Of a DNA stretch of 26,929 nt, positions 6,742 to 24,106 are shown piece after piece (the stretch's first letter is position 1; each line of letters begins with the position of its first letter). Both the position numbers and the translations under genes were made by a program. The notes beneath the pieces are model-generated. The model saw only the letters and a program-made list of their open reading frames with translations, did not search any database and was not told where the DNA came from. Origin of the DNA: a virus; the IMG/VR virus record IMGVR_UViG_3300028025_002235, positions 1 to 26,929 of that record; one strand, 5' to 3'.

Positions 6742-7169
6742 AAAATTTGCCGGAAAATTGGGGGAAAAATGGGTTGAAACAAAACCCACAAAACATCAAT
6801 CGAAATGGGCGACCAAAAAAGATTGAAAACGTGGTGGGTGAATTGTTTGCCACGGAATTCAATTTGAGGTTGTCCAAATCACAATGCCATGAAATCATTG
6901 AATCATTGTTGACCATGACACATGGCCAAATCACCAAATTGGGTGAACGGGATGATGTTCCATTCTGGATGAAAATGATTGCCAAAAAAATGGAACGTGA
7001 CATGAACCGGGGTTCCGTTCATTTGATGGAAATTTTGTTTGACCGGGTATTTGGCAAACCAAAGGAAACAATTGACACAATCAATTCATCACCGGAACCA
7101 TTCATCCAAATTGATGTTGTTTCATCCGAAATCCCATTGGCAAATTCCGAAAATCAAATCATTGAATGA
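6738..7169 (+). CDS. terS: Terminase small subunit-like protein
   Basis: A 143-residue protein directly before, and overlapping by ATGA, the large terminase. The N-terminus has a basic NRNGRPKK patch, followed by a helical region (about 28-105) with SQCHEIIESLLTMTHGQI and PFWMKMIAKKMERDMNRGS, then ILFDRVFGKPKE. This helical pattern, the GKPKE end and the position match small terminases of Bacteroidota phages, which recognise the packaging site. Identification rests on position and general pattern more than on catalytic residues. Confidence 0.7.
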   Translation: MKNLPENWGKNGLKQNPQNINRNGRPKKIENVVGELFATEFNLRLSKSQCHEIIESLLTMTHGQITKLGERDDVPFWMKMIAKKMERDMNRGSVHLMEILFDRVFGKPKETIDTINSSPEPFIQIDVVSSEIPLANSENQIIE

Positions 7170-8329
7170 TGTTCAAAACATCGGTGATTTTTGAAAAGAA
7201 CTATTCATCCAAGGCCAAAATTGTCATCAACCAAGGTGGGACATCATCCGGGAAAACCTATTCCATTTTACAATGTCTGTTTCTCAAATGCATTGAAATG
7301 GCACCGGAGTTGAACAACAAAGTTGTGACCATTGTTGGTCAAGATATTCCCAATCTAAAATCCGGGGCATTAAGGGATGCCCAAAACATTTTGAACACAT
7401 CACCGGAATTGCAAAAATGGGTTCAATCATACAATTCCACCGAACGGATTTTCACCTTTGTCAATGGGGCCACAATGGAATTCAAATCATTTGATGATGG
7501 ACAAGATGCCAAATCCGGGAAACGGATGTTTGCATTTTTCAATGAAGCAAACGGGATTTCCAAATCCATTTTTGATGAAATATACATCCGAACGGAAAAA
7601 CAAACGTTCATTGATTACAACCCGAATGCCCGGTTTTGGGTTCATGATGAATTGGTCCCATTGCCGGAATCCGAATTGATTATTTCGGACCACCGACACA
7701 ACCCGTTTTTGTCCGATGAAACCCGGATGAAAATTGAAAATTTGAAAAACCGGGACATGGAATTGTGGCGAGTTTATGCCCGTGGCATGACCGGGAAAAT
7801 AGAGGGATTGATATTCCGGAATTGGTTTGTTGTTGATGCCATCCCATCCCATTGTGAATTGGTTGCATACGGATTGGATTGGGGTTGGAATCCGGATCCA
7901 ACGGCCATGGTGGGTGTGTACAAAGGTGATGGACAATTGTGGGTTGATCAATTGTTGTACACCAATGAAAAATTGAACACGGATTTGATTGCATATTTAA
8001 ATGAAATTGGATTCGACAAAACCCACCAAATCATTGCGGATTCAAGCGAAAAAAAATCAATAGAGGAATTCCGCCGTTCCGGATTCCGAATCATGGGTGT
8101 TTCCAAGCCATCCGGTTCAATCCAATACGGAATTGATGTGTTGAAACGTTACCAAATAAACATCACCAAACGTTCCAAACAAATCATTGATGAATTCAAC
8201 AATTACAAATGGGATGAACGGATGCCGGGAAAAGCCGTGGACAAATTCAACCACGGAATTGATGCCATCCGATATGTTGCCATGACAAAATTGGGAATCA
8301 CAAACAAGGATAACTACCACATATTATGA
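7166..8329 (+). CDS. terL: Terminase large subunit (packaging ATPase/nuclease)
   Basis: A 387-residue packaging motor protein. Walker A is GGTSSGKT (24-31) and Walker B is MFAFFNEAN (121-129, Glu127 catalytic). The C-terminal RNase H-like nuclease has GLDWGWNPDPTA (Asp238), IIADSS (Asp292) and KFNHGIDAIRY (Asp366). It pumps DNA into the prohead through the portal and cuts at the end of packaging. Both domains look intact, though 387 residues is at the short end for the family. The first 300 nt carry more CT/AG than the rest of the gene. Tandem ATGs (7166, 7169) leave the start uncertain by one residue. Confidence 0.93.
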   Translation: MMFKTSVIFEKNYSSKAKIVINQGGTSSGKTYSILQCLFLKCIEMAPELNNKVVTIVGQDIPNLKSGALRDAQNILNTSPELQKWVQSYNSTERIFTFVNGATMEFKSFDDGQDAKSGKRMFAFFNEANGISKSIFDEIYIRTEKQTFIDYNPNARFWVHDELVPLPESELIISDHRHNPFLSDETRMKIENLKNRDMELWRVYARGMTGKIEGLIFRNWFVVDAIPSHCELVAYGLDWGWNPDPTAMVGVYKGDGQLWVDQLLYTNEKLNTDLIAYLNEIGFDKTHQIIADSSEKKSIEEFRRSGFRIMGVSKPSGSIQYGIDVLKRYQINITKRSKQIIDEFNNYKWDERMPGKAVDKFNHGIDAIRYVAMTKLGITNKDNYHIL

Positions 8330-8910
8330 AAAAAAAAGTTGACAACATTTGGCACAAATTAAAGGTGGGCCAATTCCAAGAGATTCAAACGTTGGGCCAT
8401 TTGGAACCATTTGACCAATTGAAAACCATTGTGGCCATTGTGGATGAATTGTCCATGTCAAAAGTGGATGAAATGCCCATGTGGGATGTTCAAAAACGTG
8501 GTGTTGAAATCATGGACCAATTGCAAACCATGAATCATGCGAAATGGAAAACCCATGTTTATTTGGATGGGACACGATATAAAATCATCCGCATGTTTGA
8601 TGAAATCACTACCGGTCAATTTGTTGAATACAACCATTGGATTCATGGGAAAACACCGGCGGAAATCATTGGGAATTTACATTTGATTATTGCAACATTA
8701 TTGACCAAACACAAATATTTTGGGAAATGTGAACCATACGATGGAACGGCCCACAAAGAACGTGCGGAGTTGGTGCAAAACCACATGAAAATCATTGATG
8801 CCATGGGGATTGCGAATTTTTTTTTGGCCACATGGATTCAATTTGTAAACAATATCCCGGAATTTTCAAAAGTGTTGATGAAACAAGCGGAAACGGAAAT
8901 GACCAAATAA
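8326..8910 (+). CDS. Tail assembly chaperone, short product (G-like)
   Basis: A 194-residue protein with FQEIQTLG near the N-terminus and helical segments throughout, ending in PEFSKVLMKQAETEMTK. The zero frame carries a nine-T run (8817-8825) about 85 nt before its stop. A second ORF in the -1 frame overlaps it from 8799. This is the G/GT arrangement of siphophage tail assembly chaperones, where the short form and a frameshifted long form fold and deliver the tape measure. No tape-measure-adjacent position is seen (it lies at 13151), but other tail genes follow directly. Sequence alone does not identify the family firmly. Confidence 0.65.
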   Translation: MKKKVDNIWHKLKVGQFQEIQTLGHLEPFDQLKTIVAIVDELSMSKVDEMPMWDVQKRGVEIMDQLQTMNHAKWKTHVYLDGTRYKIIRMFDEITTGQFVEYNHWIHGKTPAEIIGNLHLIIATLLTKHKYFGKCEPYDGTAHKERAELVQNHMKIIDAMGIANFFLATWIQFVNNIPEFSKVLMKQAETEMTK

Positions 8911-9092
8911 CACCATTCGTTCAAAATTACGGATGGTTGATTTTGGTTGACCGGATTGCCGGTGGGGACAAAATGAAATGGAATGATGTTTTTCGGATTC
9001 CGGCCCGTGAATTTTTGAACATCATTGTTTTTTCCAACATGCAGAGGGAACAAGAACAATTTGAAATGGACAACCACCGGCGAATGGTGTAA
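8799..9092 (+). CDS. Tail assembly chaperone -1 frameshift extension (T-like domain)
   Basis: The -1 frame relative to the gene at 8326 is open from 8799 to 9092. A slip at T TTT TTT (8817-8823) would join 166 residues of the upstream frame to 89 residues here, giving about 255. The extension holds YGWLILVDRIAGGDKMKWN, then DVFRIPAREFLNIIVF and EQEQFEMDNHRRM; this resembles the T domain of tail chaperones, which binds tail tube and tape measure. An independent start at ATG 8832 would give 86 residues, but it lies deep in the overlap without a usual leader. Transcriptional slippage on the T-run is an alternative mechanism. Confidence 0.65.
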   Translation, partial: CHGDCEFFFGHMDSICKQYPGIFKSVDETSGNGNDQITPFVQNYGWLILVDRIAGGDKMKWNDVFRIPAREFLNIIVFSNMQREQEQFEMDNHRRMV

Positions 9093-9119
9093 TTTTTTGG
9101 AATTGTGCATTGGTAATTG

Positions 9120-9734
9120 ATGGCAAAAGACAATTTTTTTTCCGTTGAATTTGATTCCTTTGGGGTTGATGAATCCGTTGCCAATGATGTCACGGGTTTT
9201 GATGATGTCCAAAACGTGTTGTTTGAATGGTGCAAAGAAACCACGGAATTGATGGTTGCCGAATTCGACAACATGCCGTTTGATAAATACGGGCAACGGG
9301 TTGGGCGGTCCACCGGTAATTTGCGACAAAAATTGGTGGCATTGCCGGTTGAAAAATTTGGTGAGGTTTACACGGCGGAAATTTCATCCCAGGATGTTGA
9401 TTATTGGGCATATTTCAATTATGGTGTCCAAGGTAGATATTCAACAACCAAGGCACCGAATTCACCATTTCGATATAAGGATAAAATGCCACCATTATCC
9501 GCCATGCAAACGTGGGGAATGGAAAAAGGATATTTCACCGGGTTGGATGAACAACAACGGGAATCATTGGCCAAATCCATCCGGTGGCAAATCTATTCCA
9601 CCGGAATAAAGGCCCGGCCATTCATTGAACCGGTATTGACTGAAAAACATATCCAAAAATTGACCGACAATTTGGGGGAATTCATTGCCGGTGCAATTGC
9701 ACAAATCCAATTGCCCAAAACACCAAGCAGATGA
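9120..9734 (+). CDS. HK97 gp10-like tail/connector protein
   Basis: A 204-residue protein starting at ATG 9120 (an in-frame TTG sits one codon upstream). The N-terminal half is helical (VQNVLFEWCKETTELMVAEF), followed by GRSTGNLRQKL, the conserved YWAYFNYGVQGRYSTTKAP core (about 98-116), then SIRWQIYSTGIKARPFIEPVL (about 161-181). This order is typical of HK97 gp10-like proteins, which complete the head-tail interface or tail terminus. The RPFIEPVL end is the most diagnostic part. Confidence 0.7.
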   Translation: MAKDNFFSVEFDSFGVDESVANDVTGFDDVQNVLFEWCKETTELMVAEFDNMPFDKYGQRVGRSTGNLRQKLVALPVEKFGEVYTAEISSQDVDYWAYFNYGVQGRYSTTKAPNSPFRYKDKMPPLSAMQTWGMEKGYFTGLDEQQRESLAKSIRWQIYSTGIKARPFIEPVLTEKHIQKLTDNLGEFIAGAIAQIQLPKTPSR

Positions 9735-10960
9735 TTACAATAAATAAAACACCGGCCACATACACATTTTCCGGGAATCCAATGACCATTGTTTTGGATT
9801 CGGACAATTCATCCGTTGTGGGGATGAAATACGTTTGTGATGTTTCAATTGATGGAACTTTGGTCACACGTTTGAAATGTTCACCAAATTCAACCAATGG
9901 TTATGGTTTTTTTGATGTTTCCGGGGTTGTTTCAAAATTTGTGGGGATTGATGTTGATTCACAATCCGCATGGACCATGGGACAAAATTGTGAAAACATG
10001 TTTGTTGATGTGAATGTTGATTTTGCAGAGGAAATTTCCGGAACAATCACCACGTTTTCCCAATTCGATTTCCGGGCCATTACTTATGCCATGGATTGGT
10101 TGGATTTCCCATCCGTTACATTGCCGGATTTTTTCCAAGATGGTGGGACACGTTACACACGGGCATTGACACAAAACCAACAATACAAATTCACATTGGA
10201 CACACGTTCATATTTGTATTTTCCAATCACCATTCAAACATCATCCAACATTGATTTGATGCATGTGGAATATTTTGATGGGATGGGTAATTTGATTCGA
10301 CAATTTGAATTCAACACACCGGTCCGGGAATTTCATGATTCAAGTGATGAAAACCCATCACCATTGATGGCCGTTCCATTCGGGCCAAAAACGTTGGAAA
10401 TATTATCGGAATTTGTTTGTTCCGATACACAACCGGGTTCATTCATGTTGAATGAAGCAAAACGGGTTGTCATGTATGGTGTTTTGAATTCAATGGATTT
10501 GGAACGTTTAACAGAAATTTACGAATACGAAATCATTGAACCATGCCCGGTTGTTGAAATAACGGAAATGCATTTTTTGTGGGGTGGTGTTGAAACGTAT
10601 GTTTTCACAAAACCCAAACGGGAATTTGTTGATTCGGAAAAAACCAATTCATCAAAACCATCCATGAATTTTTTGACCGGGTTGTACAATGTTAGTGATT
10701 CGGGCCGGTTCGTTGCAAATGTGAATTCCAAACAACGTTTTTCCGTGGTGTCCGATTGGTTGAATGATTCCGAATTTGAATGGTTGTCACGATTGGTTCA
10801 AACACCGAATGCATGGGTGACAAATCCAACGTTGGGGAAAATGGTGCCAATCATCATCACCAACACATCATTCCAAAAATTCAAACGGCAATTTGACCAA
10901 TTGAACCAATTGACCATTGAATTTGAATACACGTTTGACCAAACAAACCCATTCCAATGA
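9731..10960 (+). CDS. Tail structural protein, function unassigned
   Basis: A 409-residue, beta-rich protein without membrane helices or coiled coils. It starts with ITINKTPATYTFSGNPM and is rich in Asp, Phe, Thr and aromatic residues throughout. It lies between the gp10-like gene and another large structural protein, upstream of the tape measure, and is coupled by ATGA on both sides. A baseplate or distal tail component is the likely role from position. No carbohydrate-binding or peptidase motif was recognised. Confidence 0.6.
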   Translation: MITINKTPATYTFSGNPMTIVLDSDNSSVVGMKYVCDVSIDGTLVTRLKCSPNSTNGYGFFDVSGVVSKFVGIDVDSQSAWTMGQNCENMFVDVNVDFAEEISGTITTFSQFDFRAITYAMDWLDFPSVTLPDFFQDGGTRYTRALTQNQQYKFTLDTRSYLYFPITIQTSSNIDLMHVEYFDGMGNLIRQFEFNTPVREFHDSSDENPSPLMAVPFGPKTLEILSEFVCSDTQPGSFMLNEAKRVVMYGVLNSMDLERLTEIYEYEIIEPCPVVEITEMHFLWGGVETYVFTKPKREFVDSEKTNSSKPSMNFLTGLYNVSDSGRFVANVNSKQRFSVVSDWLNDSEFEWLSRLVQTPNAWVTNPTLGKMVPIIITNTSFQKFKRQFDQLNQLTIEFEYTFDQTNPFQ

Positions 10961-13143
10961 TTGCCGAATTGTATTTGAACGGACATCGGATTGACATTGA
11001 AAATGACATCCCATTGCCCGTGACCTATTCATTGAATGAAATTGAAAACCCAACCGAACGGAATTCCGCCGTGTCCAAAACCATTGAAGTGGTGGGGACA
11101 CAAAACAATGACCGGGTGTTTGGGGAAATATACATGATTGACCAATACATCATTGATTTCAACCCATTGGAGAAAGCCACGGCGCAAATCATCCGGAATG
11201 GTGTTGAAACATTCCGTGGGATTGGCCAATTGTTGTCCATCCGCAAAACAAAATCATTGGTGGTGTATGAATTGGGATTGTATGGGGAATCCGCAGATTT
11301 CATCCGTTCCGTTTCCACAAAGGAATTGACCGACATTGATTTTTCCGATTTGAACCATGAATGGAATTCAACCAACGTGTATGATTCATGGGTTGTTGCC
11401 GGAACCGGAAATGGGTATTGTTACCCGTTGATTGATTACGGCCAATTACCGGCCGGTGAACGTACAAACACACCACCGGCATCCCAATTATACACCACCG
11501 AAATGTTTTATCCCGGCATTTATTTGAAAACGTATGTTGACCGGATTTTTGCCGGGGCCGGGTTCACGTATGTTTCCGATTTTTTGAATTCGGAAATGTT
11601 TGCAAAATTGGTGGTTCCTTATGGGTTGGCCGGTTTACCATTGATGCCGGAACAATTATTGTTTCAACAAATGTTTTTTGTTGGGTTGGATGGTGGTGTC
11701 CAAGATATTACCCAAGGCACAACCATTCAAATCAATTTTGGAATTGACACACCGGAACCATTTTTCAATGGTGGCAATTATGACACGGCCAATTTTGAAT
11801 TTGATTGTGTCACAACGGACCAATATGATTTTGAATGCCACATGAATTGGCAACCGAATTTGTCAATTTTGGGATATGACCAAACGGCCACGGCGCAATT
11901 GTTTGTCAATGGGGCATCCGTTGGGACATTAGCATCATATACATGGGCACCAAATACGGGAAATGCGGTCCAAGTGAGTGGAGTTTTGACCGGTATTTCA
12001 TTGACGGCCGGTGATGTGGTTGATGTCCGTGTTTCTTTTTATTTGGATACCGACACACCACCACCAATTTCATATTTGCGAATTTTCACGGATGGTTCGT
12101 TTTGGTTGAACAAAATTTCCGGAACACCAACCATGGCAGTTGGTCAAGTGTGGGACATGAACCAAACCATTGTTCCAAAAATCAAACAATCCGATTTCAT
12201 GGCATGGGTATTCAAAATGTTCAATTGTTTTGTGATGCCGGACAAATACGATTCCAAAAAATTGTACATTGAACCATTCCCGGATTTTTATGCAACCACG
12301 GAACCACCAATTGATTGGACACAAAAATTGGATGTTGAACAAACAATGACCATTGAACCGGTTGCATTGGCAACCCAAAAAACGTTTGTTTTCAACCACC
12401 GGGATGGTGGTGAATTCATTGCCAAAAAATATCAAACGGCATTCAATTCATCGTATGGTTCCCGTGTTTATGAAATTGAAAACGAATTTGCCACGGATTC
12501 AAATGAACAAACCAATTTATTTGCCATTGCACCGATGTCCGGGTACACATCATCATCCCGTTTGATTTCACGAATTTGGGACATGGATGAAAATGGAGTT
12601 GTCAAACCTATCAATCCGGGTTTGCGCATCATGTTCCATGGGTTCATTGAATATCCCAAAAATGCCGGGTTTTTTGTATTTGAGGGAACACCATTGGCAT
12701 CATATCCGTATGCCGGGCATTTGGACAATTTGTACAATCCACAACACGATTTGTGTTTTGGCATCCCACGGGAAATTTATTGGACCAATAACACGGAAAC
12801 AAACCAATTTTGGAAATACACCAACGGCAATTTATTCAATCGATATTGGCGGAATTATGTTGATGAATTGACCAACGTGGATGCAAAACGTTTGGTTGCC
12901 AATATCAATTTGGATTCGATTGACATTTACAATTTGGATTTCCGGAAATTGATTTTGATTGGAAACACCATGTTCCGGTTGATTTCCATTCGGGATTTCG
13001 ATGCAAACAAAAACACATCAACCACATGTGAGTTCATCCGGGTGACCAACATTGAACCATTTGTGGCAACACAATTCACATTGACCAATGGGGCAAATGC
13101 ATTCATTGGGGATGAACCAAAACCATACACAATCATTGAATAA
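10957..13143 (+). CDS. Large tail/baseplate protein
   Basis: A 728-residue protein, the largest in the window. The N-terminus (IAELYLNGHRIDIENDIPLP, then PTERNSAVSKTIEVVGTQNN) is a start I associate with large structural proteins of Bacteroidota phages. It is beta-rich with many Asp, Asn, Tyr and Trp residues. The region about 290-370 looks like a beta-sandwich insertion (VNGASVGTLASYTW, then LTAGDVVDVRVSF), as in carbohydrate-binding modules. A hub or baseplate role is likely; receptor contact is possible. The AG/CT depletion is at its strongest here. Confidence 0.6.
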   Translation: MIAELYLNGHRIDIENDIPLPVTYSLNEIENPTERNSAVSKTIEVVGTQNNDRVFGEIYMIDQYIIDFNPLEKATAQIIRNGVETFRGIGQLLSIRKTKSLVVYELGLYGESADFIRSVSTKELTDIDFSDLNHEWNSTNVYDSWVVAGTGNGYCYPLIDYGQLPAGERTNTPPASQLYTTEMFYPGIYLKTYVDRIFAGAGFTYVSDFLNSEMFAKLVVPYGLAGLPLMPEQLLFQQMFFVGLDGGVQDITQGTTIQINFGIDTPEPFFNGGNYDTANFEFDCVTTDQYDFECHMNWQPNLSILGYDQTATAQLFVNGASVGTLASYTWAPNTGNAVQVSGVLTGISLTAGDVVDVRVSFYLDTDTPPPISYLRIFTDGSFWLNKISGTPTMAVGQVWDMNQTIVPKIKQSDFMAWVFKMFNCFVMPDKYDSKKLYIEPFPDFYATTEPPIDWTQKLDVEQTMTIEPVALATQKTFVFNHRDGGEFIAKKYQTAFNSSYGSRVYEIENEFATDSNEQTNLFAIAPMSGYTSSSRLISRIWDMDENGVVKPINPGLRIMFHGFIEYPKNAGFFVFEGTPLASYPYAGHLDNLYNPQHDLCFGIPREIYWTNNTETNQFWKYTNGNLFNRYWRNYVDELTNVDAKRLVANINLDSIDIYNLDFRKLILIGNTMFRLISIRDFDANKNTSTTCEFIRVTNIEPFVATQFTLTNGANAFIGDEPKPYTIIE

Positions 13144-13150
13144 ATAAGCC

Positions 13151-15103
13151 ATGGCAGATACTACCAAAAACATATTGATTCGGGTAAAATCGGAAACCGA
13201 TGACGCAAACAAGGATTTCAAATCATTGCAACATGAATTGAAAGAAATTCAAAAGGCAATGAATTTGTTGTCAGAAGCCGGAAAAGAGGGTTCAAAAGAT
13301 TTTGAACTATTATCACAACGTGCCGGGGAATTAAAGGACCAAATCGGTGACACAAAGGCCCGAATTAACGCATTGGCATCCGATACATTCAAATTGGATG
13401 CAATGACCGGGGCGGTTGAGGGCCTTGCATCCGGGTTCGCAGTTGTTGAGGGTGCAACGGCATTGTTTGGGGCGGAAAATGAAGATTTGCAAAAAACATT
13501 GGTTCGTGTCCAAGGTGCCATGGCATTGCTTCAAGGCGCACAATCAATCCAAAATTTGTTGCAAAAGGAATCTGCCGTGTACATTGGTGTCACTACATTG
13601 GCCCAAAAAACATACAATGCGGTTGTTGGTGATTCCGTTGGTGTCACAAAAGCGTTCCGGGTTGCATTGGCCACAACCGGTGTTGGTGTGTTGGTCGGTG
13701 TCATTGGGTATTTGGCATCCAATTGGGAATCATTAACCAATGCCATTGGTGGTTCAAACCGGGAATTGGGAATCACAAAAGAAACATTGAATTCCGTTGG
13801 TGAACAATATGCAGATGAACAAGTTTCCGTTCGGATGTTGGTTCATGAATATGAAAATGTCAATACATCCGCAACCCGGAAAAAGGAAATTTTGCAAGAG
13901 TTGAACAAGATTTCACCAAATTATTTTTCCACGGCAATCAAAAACACCAATGATTTGAAACGGGCGCAAGATTTGTTCAACCAATCTTTATTGGCGCAAG
14001 TTGGATTTGAAGCGGTCAAATCAACCATGATTGAAAAACAAAAAAAGTTTTTCCAAGATAATGGTGAGGCAATGCAACGTTTGAATCAAATCTATGATGA
14101 AATGAATTCGTTGCAAAAGGAAGCGGAAAAAGAGGGGGACCGGGGGAAAGCATCGGGGCGTTTAGCAATTTTACGTGAGGAACGTGCGCAATTGGAAATC
14201 AATTTGAGTGGACAAAAGGAAATGTTCCAACGGGAACAAGATAATTTGTTGAAATATGCGGATACGTTCAAAGTTGCAATGGACAAATTGGGTGGACCGG
14301 CAATTGAAGAAAAATCACCGGTTCAAAAAATGGCAAAACAAACAAAAAAGGTTGTGCGCCAAACATTCGATGATTTGGACATGTTGACATTGAAATCCGT
14401 TGGAACAATTGCCCAAAAAATGACAAGGACATTGGATGATTTTTCATGGTTTTATGAACAACAACGGGCATTGTTGGACACGTTCATGGAAGACAATTCA
14501 CATTCATTTGACCAAATGCAAATGCAATTGGACACGGCATTGGCGAACCGGGTTATTTCGATAACGGAATACAATGAACGTGTGGCCAAATTGAACCAAT
14601 TGGAATACGAATCTAAGGTGGAAACGGGGAAAGCCATTGCCAATGTTTTACAAGCCATGTCGGATGCAGTTGGAAAACAAACCAAGGCCGGAAAAATCAT
14701 GGCAACGGCATCCGCATTGATTAACACATATTTGGGGATTTCCGAAGTTTTGAAAGCCAAAAACCCGTACCCGGAACCATTCGGAACGGCCATCAAAATT
14801 GCCAATGCATCGGTCATTGGAATCAACGGGTTCAAACAAGTTCGTGAAATCAACAAAGTTCAAATTCCAAATCAATCCGGTGGTGGTGGCAATACGGGTT
14901 CACAACCATCATTGGCCGGGGCATCCGGTTCAATGCCCAATGTTCAATCCATCGGTTCACAATTATCAAGTGCAACAAAAATCCAATTGAACCAATTTGA
15001 GAATTTCAAAAATCCAACAATCCGTGCGTATGTGGTGGAATCCGATGTGACCGGGACACAACAACGGGCAAAACGTTTGAAACAAACATCAACCATAAAA
15101 TGA
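13151..15103 (+). CDS. Tail tape measure protein
   Basis: A 650-residue protein with the classic layout. A charged coiled coil opens it (about 15-75; ANKDFKSLQHELKEIQKAM). An Ala/Gly-rich region with a membrane-like helix follows (about 170-189; VALATTGVGVLVGVIGYLAS), then a long helical middle (about 250-510). A C-terminal hydrophobic stretch has IMATASALINTYLGI, NPYPEPFG and INGFKQVREINKVQIP. It sets tail length and may help DNA entry. At about 1.5 angstrom per residue, 650 residues suggest a tail near 100 nm (inference). Start is ATG 13151, 8 nt after the previous stop. Confidence 0.85.
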   Translation: MADTTKNILIRVKSETDDANKDFKSLQHELKEIQKAMNLLSEAGKEGSKDFELLSQRAGELKDQIGDTKARINALASDTFKLDAMTGAVEGLASGFAVVEGATALFGAENEDLQKTLVRVQGAMALLQGAQSIQNLLQKESAVYIGVTTLAQKTYNAVVGDSVGVTKAFRVALATTGVGVLVGVIGYLASNWESLTNAIGGSNRELGITKETLNSVGEQYADEQVSVRMLVHEYENVNTSATRKKEILQELNKISPNYFSTAIKNTNDLKRAQDLFNQSLLAQVGFEAVKSTMIEKQKKFFQDNGEAMQRLNQIYDEMNSLQKEAEKEGDRGKASGRLAILREERAQLEINLSGQKEMFQREQDNLLKYADTFKVAMDKLGGPAIEEKSPVQKMAKQTKKVVRQTFDDLDMLTLKSVGTIAQKMTRTLDDFSWFYEQQRALLDTFMEDNSHSFDQMQMQLDTALANRVISITEYNERVAKLNQLEYESKVETGKAIANVLQAMSDAVGKQTKAGKIMATASALINTYLGISEVLKAKNPYPEPFGTAIKIANASVIGINGFKQVREINKVQIPNQSGGGGNTGSQPSLAGASGSMPNVQSIGSQLSSATKIQLNQFENFKNPTIRAYVVESDVTGTQQRAKRLKQTSTIK

Positions 15104-15110
15104 TAAAAAT

Positions 15111-15707
15111 ATGAACAACGAAAATGAAATACCATTGTTTGAATGTGTCATTGATGAAAATGATTTTGAAACCGGTGTGAACTTTGTTGCATTGGTTGGG
15201 AAACCGGCCATTGAACGGAATTTCCACATTTTCAATGAATCCAAAAAACATCAATTCCAAATCAATGATGAACGGCGGATTGTATCCGGTCCATTGATGA
15301 TTCCTAATTTGCCAATTTACCGGTATGATGAAAAAACCGGCCCATATTACGTGACATTTTCCGAATCCACCATTGAAAAGATTGCCATGAAGTTCATGAA
15401 AAATGGTTTTGGCAAAAATGTCAACATGCAACACAAAACACCGGTGGATGGTGTTTACATGTTTGAAACGTTTTTGATTGATGGCAAACGTGGAATCAAC
15501 CCACCAACGGCCATGAATGATTTGCCACATGGGACATGGTTTGGTTCATACAAAATTGAAAATGATGATGTATGGGAAAACAAAGTGAAAACCGGTGAAT
15601 TCCGTGGGTTTTCAGTTGAGGGGGCATTTGATGAATTGTTTGTGTTGAAACAAAACCAATTCAAATCAATGTCAATGGTTGATGAAATTTTGGAGTTGTT
15701 GAAATAA
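15111..15707 (+). CDS. XkdF-like prohead protease
   Basis: A 198-residue protein matching the phage serine protease XkdF (Peptidase S78_2) pattern: VALVGKPAIERNFHIF (about 27-42), RRIVSGPLMIPNLPIYR (about 56-72), YYVTFSESTIEKIAMKFM (about 78-95), VNMQHKTPVDGVYMFETFLI with His107, then HGTWFGSYKIENDDVW and GEFRGFSVEGAF. The His and the downstream Ser in GFSVEG fit the expected catalytic residues. It should cleave scaffold and head proteins during maturation. Scaffold and major capsid genes follow directly. Confidence 0.8.
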   Translation: MNNENEIPLFECVIDENDFETGVNFVALVGKPAIERNFHIFNESKKHQFQINDERRIVSGPLMIPNLPIYRYDEKTGPYYVTFSESTIEKIAMKFMKNGFGKNVNMQHKTPVDGVYMFETFLIDGKRGINPPTAMNDLPHGTWFGSYKIENDDVWENKVKTGEFRGFSVEGAFDELFVLKQNQFKSMSMVDEILELLK

Positions 15708-15762
15708 TTTCGGCCAATTTTTTTCAACCCATGCATTTGTTTTCAAATAAATTTTTCAAAAT

Positions 15763-16359
15763 ATGAATACAACAAACCAATTGTTGGTGGGTATCCGGAA
15801 CATTTTGAAAATGTCCAAAAATGAAGCATTTGCAATTTACACCACGGCATCCGGAACGGATGTGAAAATTGATGGTGAAATTGTTGTTGGTGCAAAAGTT
15901 TTGGCCATTGGTGAAAATGGAATGGAAATCCCGGCACCGGATGGGGAACATGAATTGATTGGTGTTGCCAAAATTGTGGTCACCGATGGTGTCATTTCCG
16001 AAATCATGCCCATTGAAGATGAACCATCCGTGGAAATCGAAATTGAAGCAGAAGCCGAGAAAATGGCGGATGAATCAAACATTGAATTGGCGGTTGAACC
16101 ATCAACCCAATCCATTGATTACGGCCCGGAAATCGAATCCATGGCGGAACGAATCACAAAATTGGAAACAATGATTGCAGATTTGATGTCCAAATTGGGT
16201 GGCATGTCCAAAATGAACGAAAAAATGGCATCCATGTTGAGCAAAATTGAATTGTTGCCCACGGCGGAACCAACCAAAAATGAAACGTTTTCAAGTTCCA
16301 AAAAAGATGAAAAATGGGAACGTTTTGAAACATTGAAACAAGTATTAAAAAATAAATAA
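15763..16359 (+). CDS. Scaffolding-type protein
   Basis: A 198-residue protein between protease and major capsid genes. The N-terminal part (about 20-85) is beta-rich and contains DVKIDGEIVVGAKVL, then GENGMEIPAPDGEHEL; a very acidic linker follows (about 86-120; IEDEPSVEIEIEAEAEKM). A Met-rich coiled coil (about 126-165; MAERITKLETMIADLMSKLG) and a charged tail (KWERFETLKQVLKNK) end it. Acidic, coiled-coil and next to the capsid gene is the usual scaffold profile. The first 55 nt upstream hold no clear promoter or hairpin. Confidence 0.7.
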   Translation: MNTTNQLLVGIRNILKMSKNEAFAIYTTASGTDVKIDGEIVVGAKVLAIGENGMEIPAPDGEHELIGVAKIVVTDGVISEIMPIEDEPSVEIEIEAEAEKMADESNIELAVEPSTQSIDYGPEIESMAERITKLETMIADLMSKLGGMSKMNEKMASMLSKIELLPTAEPTKNETFSSSKKDEKWERFETLKQVLKNK

Positions 16360-16364
16360 AAAAA

Positions 16365-17312
16365 ATGAGTTACACATTTACAGCACCATTAACGCAGTAC
16401 ACCAACCAAAATGTATTGCCATTGATTACCAAATCATTGTTTGATGCCCGTACCATTTCGTTAATCAACAAACAAGTTGGTTTGAAAGGTCCATCAACAT
16501 TGAATTTGATGTCCGAAACCACATCATTTGCTTATGGTTTTGGTTGTGGGTTCACATCAAACGTGGGAACTAATGCAACAGATTTCACACAACGCACAAT
16601 CAACGTTGTTGATGTCAAGGTCTATGAATCATTATGCCCAAAAGCATTGCAACAATATTGGATGCAATCACAATTGCCATCCGGTTCAATGTTGACAACC
16701 ATTCCATTTGAGGAACAATACGCCACAATGAAAGTCAAGGCCATCCAAAAGGCATTAGAAACAGCCATTTGGACCGGTACCGGTTCGCTCGGTTCAATCA
16801 ACGGATTTGCAAACATTTTGTCCGGAGTTACCGATTACAATGCAACCGTTTCCGGATGGACAACATTGACATTGGCGGATTTGACCGGGGCATCCGGCGG
16901 AGCAAATGTCATCAAAATGTTGAACCGAATTGAAACCAACATCCCGGCGGACATTCGTGGGGCGGATGATGTTGTTATTTTTTGCGGAATGGACATGTTC
17001 ACCATCATCAAACAAGGTTTGGTAGCGCAAAACTATTTCAACGTTTCATATTTGAATGGTGTTGAAACATACGAATTGACATTGCCCGGTTCCAACATCC
17101 GTTTGATTGGTGTGAATGGTTTGAACACATTAAATGATTTGTATTTCGGCCGTTTGTCCAATTTCTATTTCGGAACCGATTTGTTGGGTGAGGAAGAAAA
17201 ATTTGAAATCTTCTATGCAAAAGAGGCGGATGAAGTTCGTTTCATGTGCGAATTCAAGGCCGGTGTACAGGTTGCATTTACCGACCAAGTTGGTCGTTTC
17301 ATGATTGTATAA
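16365..17312 (+). CDS. Major capsid protein
   Basis: A 315-residue protein placed after protease and scaffold and followed by its own hairpin terminator. It has features common to HK97-fold capsid proteins of this group: an N-terminal arm (LTQYTNQNVLPLITKSLF), a long central helix region (TTIPFEEQYATMKVKAIQKA, then LETAIWTGTG, about 105-143), and a C-terminal VRFMCEFKAGVQVAFTDQVG. An A-rich leader (aaataaataaaaaaa) precedes the ATG and codon choice is slightly more relaxed than in neighbours, both fitting high expression. Fold assignment is inference from context and pattern. Confidence 0.8.
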   Translation: MSYTFTAPLTQYTNQNVLPLITKSLFDARTISLINKQVGLKGPSTLNLMSETTSFAYGFGCGFTSNVGTNATDFTQRTINVVDVKVYESLCPKALQQYWMQSQLPSGSMLTTIPFEEQYATMKVKAIQKALETAIWTGTGSLGSINGFANILSGVTDYNATVSGWTTLTLADLTGASGGANVIKMLNRIETNIPADIRGADDVVIFCGMDMFTIIKQGLVAQNYFNVSYLNGVETYELTLPGSNIRLIGVNGLNTLNDLYFGRLSNFYFGTDLLGEEEKFEIFYAKEADEVRFMCEFKAGVQVAFTDQVGRFMIV

Positions 17313-17319
17313 ATTGACC

Positions 17320-17351
17320 ATGGTGGTGGGGTAAAATCCACCACCATTTTT
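17320..17351 (+). terminator. Intrinsic terminator after the major capsid gene
   Basis: A perfect 10-bp stem, ATGGTGGTGG (17320-17329) with CCACCACCAT (17338-17347), closes an 8-nt loop and is followed by T5 (17347-17351). It lies between the capsid and the next structural gene, inside what otherwise looks like one operon, so it is probably partial. Confidence 0.75.
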
Positions 17352-17374
17352 CCACCAAATAAAAAGATAAAAAA

Positions 17375-17866
17375 ATGAGTTGTTCAATAACAAGCGGATA
17401 TGCATTGGATTGCAAAGAATCCGTGGGTGGAATTAAGGCCGTGTACATTGCGGATTTCACATCCATCACATACGATACACCAACCGGTGGCGTAATTGCC
17501 AACGTTGATGCCGGTGATTTTTACGAATTTGAGTTACCACCACAAACGGGGAATTTTACCACCACGGCAAATTCATCCATTGAAAATCAATCCACGTTTT
17601 ACCAAACCGAATTGGTGATTGCATTGCCACGTTTGTCAACCACGGCCCGAAATCAATTCATGGTTTTGACAAAAGGCCGTTTTGCCATTGTGGTTTTGGA
17701 CCGATTAGGAAACAAATTTGTTTTGGGTTATGAAAACGGATGTTTTGCCACAACCGGAACGGCTGTTTCCGGAACGGCAATGGGTGATTTGAATGGACAA
17801 AATTTGACATTCACATCATTGGAAACACAACCACCATTGATTTTGACCGGTTCCATTCCAACCTAA
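17375..17866 (+). CDS. Major tail (tube)-like structural protein
   Basis: A 163-residue, beta-rich protein starting MSCSITSGYALDCKESVGGIKAVYIADF. It continues with a central QSTFYQTELVIALPRLSTTAR and RFAIVVLDRLGNKFVLGYENG, then GTAMGDLNGQNLTFTSLE near the C-terminus. I recognise this pattern from abundant structural proteins of Bacteroidota phages, most likely the tail tube. Own terminator behind it and an A-rich leader (aaaaagataaaaaa) fit high expression. It lies right after the major capsid gene; a head decoration protein is the alternative. Confidence 0.65.
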   Translation: MSCSITSGYALDCKESVGGIKAVYIADFTSITYDTPTGGVIANVDAGDFYEFELPPQTGNFTTTANSSIENQSTFYQTELVIALPRLSTTARNQFMVLTKGRFAIVVLDRLGNKFVLGYENGCFATTGTAVSGTAMGDLNGQNLTFTSLETQPPLILTGSIPT

Positions 17867-17887
17867 TTTTTCACAACATATTTCAAC

Positions 17888-17920
17888 AAAACCGGTTCCA
17901 ATTTTGGGCCGGTTTTTTTT
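17888..17920 (+). terminator. Intrinsic terminator after the tail-tube-like gene
   Basis: AAAACCGG (17888-17895) pairs with CCGGTTTT (17909-17916), with an inner CCAA/TTGG helix (17898-17901 with 17904-17907). T8 follows the stem (17913-17920). A second weak hairpin, GCACAA/TTGTGC (17926-17931 with 17941-17946), lies just downstream. Confidence 0.8.
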
Positions 17921-17956
17921 ATTTGGCACAATTTGATTTTTTGTGCATTTGTTTTC

Positions 17957-18325
17957 ATGCAATTGTTGAATTCCGGAGAAACCCAACGTTTGTTTTTCAC
18001 GGCCACGGAAAACATGGTTAGTGGGAATTATTTGTATTTGTTGATTGAACATATTTCAACCAATGAATCATTTTTTTTGTCATTCCCAAAATCTGCAAAC
18101 GTGTCAACATACACCGACCGGTGGGATGGGTTTGATGTTTCAATCCCAAACATTCCCATTGGCCAATGTCGGTATTCACTTTACGAGGGTGAAACCGGTG
18201 CAACATCGGTTGATTCGCCGGAAATTACCCGAATGATTGAATGCGGATTGTATCAAGTTTTGACAAATGAATCAACGGATTTCACAATTGAAAATCCAAT
18301 CACATATTTTGAACCAACAATATGA
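17957..18325 (+). CDS. Small structural protein before the portal, unassigned
   Basis: A 122-residue, beta-rich protein. ATG 17957 is chosen over an upstream in-frame TTG (17933) that falls in the leader hairpin. Segments such as TQRLFFTATENMVSGNYLYL, then SFPKSANVSTYTDRWDGFDV and CRYSLYEGE give an immunoglobulin-like strand pattern. It resembles short proteins found beside structural genes of Bacteroidota phages. It is coupled to the portal gene by ATGA. Role unknown; a decoration or connector protein is plausible. Confidence 0.65.
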   Translation: MQLLNSGETQRLFFTATENMVSGNYLYLLIEHISTNESFFLSFPKSANVSTYTDRWDGFDVSIPNIPIGQCRYSLYEGETGATSVDSPEITRMIECGLYQVLTNESTDFTIENPITYFEPTI

Positions 18326-20253
18326 AAAGTGAATACGCTATTGTAACATCACCGGCCAATTTGGACAAACGGACACAAATGAAATTTGAATTGGCCATGC
18401 CCGTTTTCAAGGTTGTGACCGGCAATGATTTTGTGGTGTATGGTGAGGACAACAAATTCCCAATGTATTTGTTGGAAATGTACCAACGTTCCGCCAAACA
18501 CAATGCCATCATCAATGGAAAAGTCAATTACATTTTCGGTGGTGGGTTCACATACGACACAAACAAATTGACCGATGAAATGATTGGTCAATTGGGGGAT
18601 TTTATGGAAAATCCAAATCCATTTGATTCAATGAATGATGTGTTGCGAAAAACCATCATGGACAATGAAATTTTCAATGGTTATGCATTGGAAGTTGTTT
18701 GGTCATTGGGTGGCAAAATTTCATCCATTTCACATGTTCCATTCCATGAATGCCGTGTGTCGGTGGATGGCAAAAAAATTGGCCGTTCAAAATTGTGGGA
18801 TGGCAACCGGAAACCAAAAGATTTGGAAATTTTTGACCGGTTCAATCCGGAACAAAGATTGGGAAAACAAATTTTCTATGTGGTGACCTATTCGCCAAAT
18901 TGCTATCATTACCCAATCCCGGAATATTTCGGGGCCATGGCATACATTGAAAGTGATTCCAGAATTGCCAATTTCCACGTTCAAAATTTGCGGAATGGGT
19001 TTTTGGGTGGATTCATTTTCCAATTCAACAATGGGGTTCCAACGGCGGAAAAGCAACGTGAAATTGAACGCAAAGTCAAATCAAAATTCGGTGGGGATGA
19101 TGGTGAACGCATCATGGTTGAATTCACCGATGGGGCCGAATACGGGATGAAATTGATTCCGGTTCAAGCGAATGACCTTGACAAACAATTTGACATCCTT
19201 AATGAATCCATCCAACAAGAAATTTTCACGGCGCATCGTGTGACATCCGGAATGTTATTCGGTATTAAGGAATCCGGCCAATTGGGTGGCCGTTCGGAAT
19301 TGGTTGAATCTTATGAATTGTTCAAATCGGTGTATGTAAAGGACCGAGCAAATGAACAAATCCGTTCATACAATTATTTGTTGTCATTCAATGGGTTTGG
19401 CAATGTGTTGGAAATCATCCCAACCGAACCAATCAAAGAACAATTAAGTGAACAAACGTTGTTGCAAATTGCATCCCGTGGTGAATTACGTGCCATGATG
19501 GGATTGCCGGATGACACAATTGAAGTTCCAAAAACCACCGATTCCATCCAATCATTGTCACCATTGGTTGCCAATAAAGTGTTGGAAAAATTAACCGATG
19601 CGGAAATCCGTTCATTGGTTGGATTGGGAACAACACAACAATCATTTGCATCCATGGATGATGATGATTTGTTGATTGCAGAATTTGAAAACCATGGTGA
19701 ATGTCAATCGGGTTTTGAATTATTGAAATCACGGCCAATGCGATATGGGTTTGAATTAAAAGAAAACGAATTCAAATCGGAGTATGAAGATATTGACAAA
19801 CAAATTGTCAAGAAAATTGACAAAAACCCAAACATTTCATCGGATGCCATTGCAACCGAATTGGGATTGGACATTGATTTGGTTGCCGAACGTATTTCCG
19901 CATTGATTGAAAATGGTTCCATCAAAGTAACCGGGACATTGAAAGAAATTGGGGAACCGGCAAAAGATTGGGTTAAGTCCAAGGACATGACACAAATGTT
20001 GGAAATCCGGTACAAATACGATGTGTTGCCCGAATACGGGCCAAAATTATTGGAAACATCCCGTAAATTTTGCAAATACATGATTGAAAAAGGCCGGTAT
20101 TACACACGTGAGGAAATCAACCAAATTTCCGCAAAGATGGGTTATTCGGTTTGGGAACGTAGAGGCGGATTTTACACCGACAAAAAAACCGGATTGACAC
20201 GACCATCATGCCGTCACATTTGGGTTCAAACATTAGTGAAAAAACGTAATTGA
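18322..20253 (+). CDS. Portal protein with C-terminal winged-helix and FC/CRHIW domains
   Basis: A 643-residue protein. Residues 1 to about 435 match a phage portal: NAIINGKVNYIFGGGF (61-76), wing and stem regions, DKQFDILNESIQQEIFTAHR (287-306), then SGQLGGRSELVESYELFK (318-335). The portal is the ring through which the terminase packages DNA. Added to it are an Asp-rich linker (445-460), a winged-helix-like unit (about 490-537; ISSDAIATELGLDIDLVAER) and a C-terminal domain (575-640) with SRKFC, GRYYTREEI, RRGGFY and SCRHIW. Similar FC...CRH ends occur on minor head proteins, suggesting a portal-minor head fusion. Start is ATGA-coupled. Confidence 0.85.
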   Translation: MKSEYAIVTSPANLDKRTQMKFELAMPVFKVVTGNDFVVYGEDNKFPMYLLEMYQRSAKHNAIINGKVNYIFGGGFTYDTNKLTDEMIGQLGDFMENPNPFDSMNDVLRKTIMDNEIFNGYALEVVWSLGGKISSISHVPFHECRVSVDGKKIGRSKLWDGNRKPKDLEIFDRFNPEQRLGKQIFYVVTYSPNCYHYPIPEYFGAMAYIESDSRIANFHVQNLRNGFLGGFIFQFNNGVPTAEKQREIERKVKSKFGGDDGERIMVEFTDGAEYGMKLIPVQANDLDKQFDILNESIQQEIFTAHRVTSGMLFGIKESGQLGGRSELVESYELFKSVYVKDRANEQIRSYNYLLSFNGFGNVLEIIPTEPIKEQLSEQTLLQIASRGELRAMMGLPDDTIEVPKTTDSIQSLSPLVANKVLEKLTDAEIRSLVGLGTTQQSFASMDDDDLLIAEFENHGECQSGFELLKSRPMRYGFELKENEFKSEYEDIDKQIVKKIDKNPNISSDAIATELGLDIDLVAERISALIENGSIKVTGTLKEIGEPAKDWVKSKDMTQMLEIRYKYDVLPEYGPKLLETSRKFCKYMIEKGRYYTREEINQISAKMGYSVWERRGGFYTDKKTGLTRPSCRHIWVQTLVKKRN

Positions 20254-23374: not shown

Positions 23375-23781
23375 AATCATGGTTGATTCATTTGTGGATT
23401 GGTGTGGTGGCATTTTTATCACCATTGGTTCCATTGGCATTGTTGGTGTCCACATTGATTGGTGTTGATTTCATTTTTGGAATTTTCAGGGCATACAAAA
23501 ACGGGGATGAAATAAGTTCCCGAAAAATGGGGCATTCGATTTCAAAGATATTTTTGTACAACATGGCCGTTTTGTCGGTTTTCATGTTGGAAAAAATAAT
23601 CATTGGGACCAATTTGGAGTTCACCAAAATTTGTGTTGGTGTCATTGCCATGGTTGAATTGAAATCCATTGATGAATCATTCAAATTGTTGTATGGTTTT
23701 TCTATTTATGAATCCATCATCAAAAATTTGAAACGTGGAATAAGTGAAACAAAACCCAATAAAAATGAAAAAAGCAAATGA
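23371..23781 (+). CDS. Holin, phage holin 4-like family
   Basis: A 136-residue protein with membrane helices at about 7-29 (LWIGVVAFLSPLVPLALLVS), 30-39 and 58-76 (IFLYNMAVLSVFMLEKIII), with another possible helix near 85-95. GVDFIFGIFRAYKNG and SSRKMGHSISKIFLYN follow the toxin-secretion/phage-lysis holin pattern (D...GI..A.K...S). It ends in a basic, polar tail. It would open the inner membrane for the M15 endolysin, which lies about 20 kb away at 2900. ATGA-coupled at its start. Confidence 0.78.
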   Translation: MKSWLIHLWIGVVAFLSPLVPLALLVSTLIGVDFIFGIFRAYKNGDEISSRKMGHSISKIFLYNMAVLSVFMLEKIIIGTNLEFTKICVGVIAMVELKSIDESFKLLYGFSIYESIIKNLKRGISETKPNKNEKSK

Positions 23782-23995
23782 AATGGGTGTTTTGGAACGT
23801 TTGAACGGACCAACACCAAAGTTTTTCAAAAAAGTTCAAACCATGGGAATCATTGCCGGTTCGGTTGGTGCCATGATTTTGGCATTTCCCGTGGCATTGC
23901 CCGTGGCCGTGGTGAATGTTGCCGGTTATTTGATTGCATGTGGCGGAATAATGGCCGGAACATCACAATTTGCGGTTGATGATTCAAAAAAATGA
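23765..23995 (+). CDS. Small membrane protein, holin-associated
   Basis: A 76-residue protein from ATG 23765; a GTG at 23744 in frame is less likely. Its PTPKFFKKVQTMGIIAGSVG start and hydrophobic AMILAFPVALPVAVVNVAGYLIACGG region give one or two membrane helices and a short polar tail. I recognise this type from many Bacteroidota phages, where it sits by lysis genes. A second holin, antiholin or lysis regulator is likely but unproven. It is the last gene before the tandem terminators. Confidence 0.75.
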   Translation: MKKANEMGVLERLNGPTPKFFKKVQTMGIIAGSVGAMILAFPVALPVAVVNVAGYLIACGGIMAGTSQFAVDDSKK

Positions 23996-24084: not shown

Positions 24085-24106
24085 TTCATGTAGTTTTTTT
24101 TTGGAG

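Follow-up and report, generated by a model that had tools for sequence, protein, structure and literature searches.

The gene that directly follows the terminase large subunit (TerL) gene in the viral sequence analysed here carries a run of T's that is almost certainly a built-in slip-back signal after the packaging-enzyme gene, by which one gene would yield a short and a long protein. We conclude, with a probability of about 0.85, that this gene makes two proteins by programmed -1 ribosomal frameshifting and that the pair most likely are tail-assembly chaperones. The features are located within the window, which is a whole IMG/VR virus record of 26,929 bases (Table 1). In the proposed mechanism, most ribosomes would stay in the zero frame up to the stop codon at 8910 and produce a protein of 194 residues. 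A minority, with tRNA-Phe on TTT codons in both the P and the A sites, would move back by one base on T TTT TTT and read the -1 frame to 9092, giving a product of 255 residues. An N-terminal domain of about 166 residues would be common to both forms, and a helical C-terminal domain would be present in the long form only. By analogy with lambda gpG/gpGT, the short/long pair would most likely chaperone the tape measure and tube proteins in tail assembly.

Table 1. Features of the frameshift gene and its neighbourhood in the window, and the in-frame relative L209.
Feature	Coordinates	Strand	Basis
Terminase large subunit (TerL)	7166..8329	+	PHROG and Pfam terminase matches
Zero-frame ORF, short product, 194 aa	8326..8910	+	ORF list, translation
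Nine-T slip run	8817..8825	+	Sequence; phased T TTT TTT kept in relatives
Slip heptamer 1, T TTT TTT (zero-frame X XXY YYZ)	8817..8823	+	Sequence, frame
Possible slip heptamer 2, T TTT TTG	8820..8826	+	Sequence
Predicted -1 extension, 89 aa, about 60 past the zero-frame stop, helical C-terminal domain	8823..9092	+	Translation, homologous -1 domains, model
Dual-coding overlap, slip site to zero-frame stop	8826..8910	+	Substitution pattern in relatives
-1 frame ATG, likely choice of an ORF caller	8832..8834	+	Probably not a real start
Neck / tail completion protein	9117..9734	+	phrog_5, E 1.3e-6
Candidate tape measure, 650 aa	13151..15103	+	Weak tape measure PHROG matches, E 0.002-0.009
Natural fusion in L209	L209:3083-3760

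The zero-frame codons across the nine-T run read AAT TTT TTT TTG (8815-8826), and a slippery heptamer thereby lies in the zero-frame phase within the overlap with the -1 frame, which is open from 8799 to 9092. The ATG of the 194-residue ORF overlaps the TerL stop codon, and slippage on T TTT TTT gives a predicted fusion of 166 + 89 = 255 residues. In all these points (the run, its codons, the limits of the ORF and of the -1 frame, a fusion of about 255 residues next to a 194-residue form) the preliminary description of this DNA was accurate. T TTT TTT is the sole heptamer common to all frameshifting relatives, those with seven T's included; the overlapping T TTT TTG appears not to be required for the shift, since it is missing from the seven-T relatives. 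A T-run alone would be weak evidence for a frameshift because a second nine-T run is present in the window at 24094-24102, along with several runs of eight bases; it is conservation, not the run itself, that excludes chance.

Conservation was examined in three comparisons. The first was built on TerL homologues from IMG/VR and covered 76 loci in which no fewer than 650 nt follow TerL, the window and three further loci among them; any A- or T-type in-phase heptamer was accepted. An in-phase slippery heptamer and a -1 extension were found in an ORF near TerL in 66 of the 76 loci, and the heptamer was T TTT TTT in 66/66. The -1 frame passes the zero-frame stop by 27-68 residues in these TerL-linked loci, which form 27 clusters at 70% identity, and the N-terminal domain of the short product is conserved across the 27 clusters. 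Given the conserved Phe-Phe and a preceding pyrimidine-ending codon, codon usage puts the chance of NNT TTT TTT in all 27 clusters at about 10^-15.5, a value that ignores shared ancestry and overstates the evidence. The ten misfits comprise L011, L012 and L064, which are taken up below, L068, in which the phased run is present further downstream, and a remainder with other gene orders.

In the second comparison, a collection with a single genome for each bacterial or archaeal species was queried with the -1 domain of a distant group. It yielded 62 loci, from Mucilaginibacter or from Bacteroidetes bins, and every one of the 62 has the phased run, with seven T's in 47, eight in 8 and nine in 7, beginning in each case at codon position 3. 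The third comparison used the -1 domain of the window's own group as the query and was blind to both the slip site and TerL; it recovered a nine-T run with a phased heptamer in 65 of 66 loci, the lone exception being L209. Homology links the -1 domains of the window's group to those of the Mucilaginibacter group (hhalign probability 96.8%, E 2e-10), and homologues in relatives bear out the earlier impression of a conserved-looking -1 domain. Altogether, the slip site and the frame relation were found in more than 150 records, isolate genomes among them. The preliminary description had proposed a programmed -1 frameshift at the nine-T run, to be checked by the conservation of the run and of the frame offset in relatives and to be doubted if the run length varied with loss of the frame relation. 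Run and offset were found in all three comparisons, and the length varies from 7 to 9 with the frame relation kept throughout. The comparisons (66/76, 62/62 and 65/66 loci) lend strong support to programmed -1 frameshifting at the T-run, and the same predicted signal is retained in well over a hundred related viral sequences, previously unannotated as such.

Substitution patterns in the L016 group further reveal which frame is coding. Before the slip site, 1288/1494 substitutions fall at zero-frame codon position 3, while zero-frame position 2, which is position 3 in the -1 frame, receives 93/146 in the overlap and 191/239 in the extension; these counts are over pairs of related sequences and are not independent events. 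The substitution bias changes codon position, and therefore the coding frame switches at the T-run and the overlap is constrained in both frames. Homopolymers are error-prone, and the frame relation could in principle reflect a sequencing error or a decayed gene; this reading is refuted by conservation, the same relation recurring in the isolate genomes and other records counted above with coding constraint in both frames, and we assign it a negligible probability. Alternatively, re-initiation or coupled translation, for example from the ATG at 8832 in the window, could yield a separate protein from the second ORF, and ORF39 of phage P12024S is annotated as a gene of its own. The -1 homology, however, already begins at the T-run, upstream of that ATG, whose equivalent is absent from most relatives, and 21 of the 27 clusters have neither ATG nor GTG within 25 codons after the slip site in the -1 frame. 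For these two reasons independent initiation is unlikely, and a separate protein, which would leave the phased T-run and the in-frame fusion in L209 unexplained, is very improbable. Relatives encoding the second ORF with its own leader and no slip site, which the preliminary description had named as counter-evidence, were not seen.

The shift would most probably be ribosomal. RNA polymerase might instead add a U on the nine-T run, such that part of the mRNA pool encodes the fusion. Nine T's suffice for polymerase slippage in other bacteria, all close relatives carry nine-T runs, and the run stands in another codon phase in some lineages, all of which speaks for slippage during transcription. 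Tandem slippage by two tRNAs depends on the X XXY YYZ phase; slippage by the polymerase is independent of phase and as a rule takes a longer run. Against the polymerase, the run is just seven T's long, and exactly in the T TTT TTT phase, at most Mucilaginibacter loci (47/62) and in several viral clusters, and no run is longer than nine; in the first two comparisons, seven- and eight-T runs always stand in this phase and start at codon position 3. Because the seven-T runs are always in exact X XXY YYZ phase, ribosomal slippage is favoured over transcriptional slippage, which we consider an improbable origin of the long form; some polymerase slippage may occur in the nine-T lineage of the window. 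Pseudoknot-free folding of the 75 nt after the slip site in 27 clusters revealed no conserved RNA structure and no consistent signal in the fold energies, and the z-scores of the window were positive; no stimulator of the shift was found in this folded downstream region. The predicted site would accordingly be a very simple natural one, a poly-U stretch with no evident stimulator. Translation initiation in Bacteroidota relies little on Shine-Dalgarno pairing.

Supporting the existence of the long form, L209 encodes both halves in one uninterrupted in-frame protein that lies between TerL and the neck gene and has no T-run. The alignment of this protein with the predicted frameshift products spans both from end to end, at 24-30% identity, and places the junction on the slip codons. 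We regard this fusion as good evidence, at the level of sequence, that the predicted long form is a real protein, and L209 serves as a natural control in which the fusion is genomic. L209 itself seems to make only the long form, or to make the short form in another way. L011 and L012 have a single in-frame ORF after TerL and, like L209, seem to manage with one in-frame protein. The N-terminal parts of L011 and L012 show no clear homology to the N-domain of the window (hhalign probability 7%); the -1 domain of TCUEAP1 (L012) is detectable from a family member (tblastn, E 3e-4).

Searches by sequence yielded little, whether the window's proteins were compared with Pfam and PHROGs or family members with cultured phages. 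The frameshift protein matched no Pfam or PHROG family above the cut-off, and 2 of 28 members matched Phage_TAC_7 (PF10109) below the curated cut-off (best E 0.0098). We modelled the N-domain and the -1 domain separately. The AlphaFold model of the shared N-domain has a pLDDT of 93, and that of the -1 domain, at pLDDT 74, consists of three confident helices; a Foldseek search of the latter against the PDB gave no match, which the pLDDT of 74 makes uninformative. In a library of viral protein models, the N-domain model has 34 matches at E < 0.001; none of the matched proteins carries a functional name, and one of them belongs to the cultured Nonlabens phage P12024S. Among 350,542 PDB chains, the top Foldseek match of the N-domain model is the HK97 tail assembly chaperone 2OB9, a weak one (E 0.75, probability 0.23) confined to model residues 76-166; by VIA-align, 2OB9 ranks second (Z 3.2, rmsd 4.4, 77 residues).

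The classical place of a G/GT gene is between the major tail protein and the tape measure gene, directly upstream of the latter. The frameshift gene of the window, in contrast, sits directly after TerL, and the candidate tape measure gene lies four genes downstream of it. The whole late order of the window (7166-20253) is unusual, running from TerL through the frameshift gene, the neck gene, two large genes, the candidate tape measure, a protease and a capsid-like gene to the portal, which comes last. The architecture nevertheless predicts short and frameshift-extended forms of one gene amid structural genes. Such short/long pairs, produced by -1 frameshifting, typify the tail chaperones of long-tailed phages; the shared part binds the tape measure and the extension binds the major tail protein (PMC5009743).

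A chaperone role is probable and is the most likely function, with this analogy, the weak fold match and the sub-threshold Phage_TAC_7 matches behind it. The frameshift could be real and the protein could still serve head-neck or packaging assembly; the gene is located between TerL and the neck gene, and no family is matched above threshold. Such a role is unlikely in our view, since a short and a long form related by a frameshift typically mark a tail chaperone in tailed phages, the HK97 chaperone is the top PDB match and Phage_TAC_7 is weakly matched by two members. The earlier assignment of a tail chaperone following G/GT logic is plausible: the gene is small and late, a C-terminal domain is predicted to be added by the frameshift, and the product weakly resembles the HK97 chaperone fold; no family is matched above threshold, and the location after TerL is not the classical one. 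The gene would work like lambda G/GT, with its membership of that family unproven.

Several known systems resemble the one described here. Lambda gpG/gpGT and the conserved G/GT of long-tailed phages likewise have one gene with a -1 frameshift near its 3' end, and the frameshift of the latter is retained despite low protein similarity (reviewed in PMC5009743). An abundant short form and a rarer long form with an extra C-terminal domain characterise the lambda pair and are predicted for the gene of the window, which differs from lambda in its pure poly-T slip site and in its location after TerL instead of before the tape measure gene. Xu, Hendrix and Duda reportedly described the conserved G/GT frameshift of long-tailed phages in 2004. 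The HK97 gp14 chaperone (PDB 2OB9) is the best, though weak, PDB match of the N-domain model by Foldseek. Known chaperone families share no sequence similarity above threshold with the frameshift protein. The slip site of the phage P2 gene pair E/E+E' is T TTT TTG. This heptamer is also present in the window, and the two members that weakly match Phage_TAC_7 match the family of the P2 pair; the heptamer common to all relatives here is T TTT TTT instead.

The same gene, directly after TerL, is found in the cultured Nonlabens (Persicivirga) phages P12024S and P12024L. P12024S (JQ823122) has nine T's at 23578-23586 and a -1 ORF at 23570-23830 that covers the next annotated gene; its annotation lists two separate hypothetical proteins, ORFs 38 and 39, and notes no frameshift. 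In P12024L the gene is 99% identical to that of P12024S and is annotated as hypothetical, as it is in the cultured phages checked. In an open-access library, no paper describing this frameshift in phages of Bacteroidota was found. The kind of system is known (G/GT); the family, its genomic place and its wide distribution in Bacteroidota phages appear undescribed in the open-access literature searched. The analysis would extend the frameshift logic of tail chaperones to a large group of Bacteroidota phages with no Pfam or PHROG match for the gene, and it suggests a rule for annotation: a TerL gene followed by an ORF that contains a phased T TTT TTT and, after that, by a -1 ORF. The cultured phages provide material for testing the frameshift.

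More tentatively, and with slightly less than even confidence, we propose that the gene represents an as yet undescribed family of tail chaperones regulated by frameshifting, with no sequence relationship to the known ones. The family would be displaced to the packaging end of the late operon, be widespread in tailed phages of Bacteroidota and, together with its slip site, persist in a single-copy, phage-derived element of Mucilaginibacter that is inherited vertically and is GTA-like or otherwise domesticated. The Mucilaginibacter loci (L093-L154 and L224-L282) contain a phage-derived cluster of about 20-25 kb that includes the frameshift gene, and its late gene order is similar to that of the window. 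TerS, TerL, a ClpP-type protease, a capsid-like gene and a portal gene occur in the window's order, the capsid-like gene being phrog_11320, shared with 16365-17312 of the window. Of 150 Mucilaginibacter genomes, 101 have the -1 domain, nearly always as a single copy, 76 have the capsid-like gene and 81 the portal. Complete copies of the capsid-like protein share 72-99% identity with the query, and variation falls mostly at third codon positions. Capsid-gene distances track rpoB distances (Mantel r 0.83, p 0.0001, 19 genomes), and this agreement points to vertical descent of a domesticated phage. That the cluster is a domesticated phage, perhaps a gene transfer agent, is a lead and not a result.

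Individual copies of the cluster differ in their state. A tyrosine integrase lies near the G003 copy and has no homologue in the other nine loci compared. Only a 51-residue capsid fragment is left in G001 (L232-L233), the capsid gene is split in G002, and no portal match was found in G001, G061 (L226-L227) or G025 (L242-L243). In these copies, whose head genes are missing or damaged, TerL, the frameshift gene and the tail genes remain; the copies may be decaying or may be in a tailocin-like state.

Three further records were noted. The GC-rich locus L064 has the -1 ORF relation about 640-810 nt after TerL and no T-run. Flavobacterium phage 6H (L220) contains a weak fold match at 10044-10939 on its minus strand; a -1 frame ORF lies directly downstream of it, and the -1 frame has a stop after T TTT TTC. 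This case may reflect a different mechanism, a sequence error or no relation at all. Dulem virus 31 (L013, PP511318.1) is filed under Microviridae, and its 35.8-kb record has terminase, portal and tail sheath genes; the filing is probably a taxonomy error.
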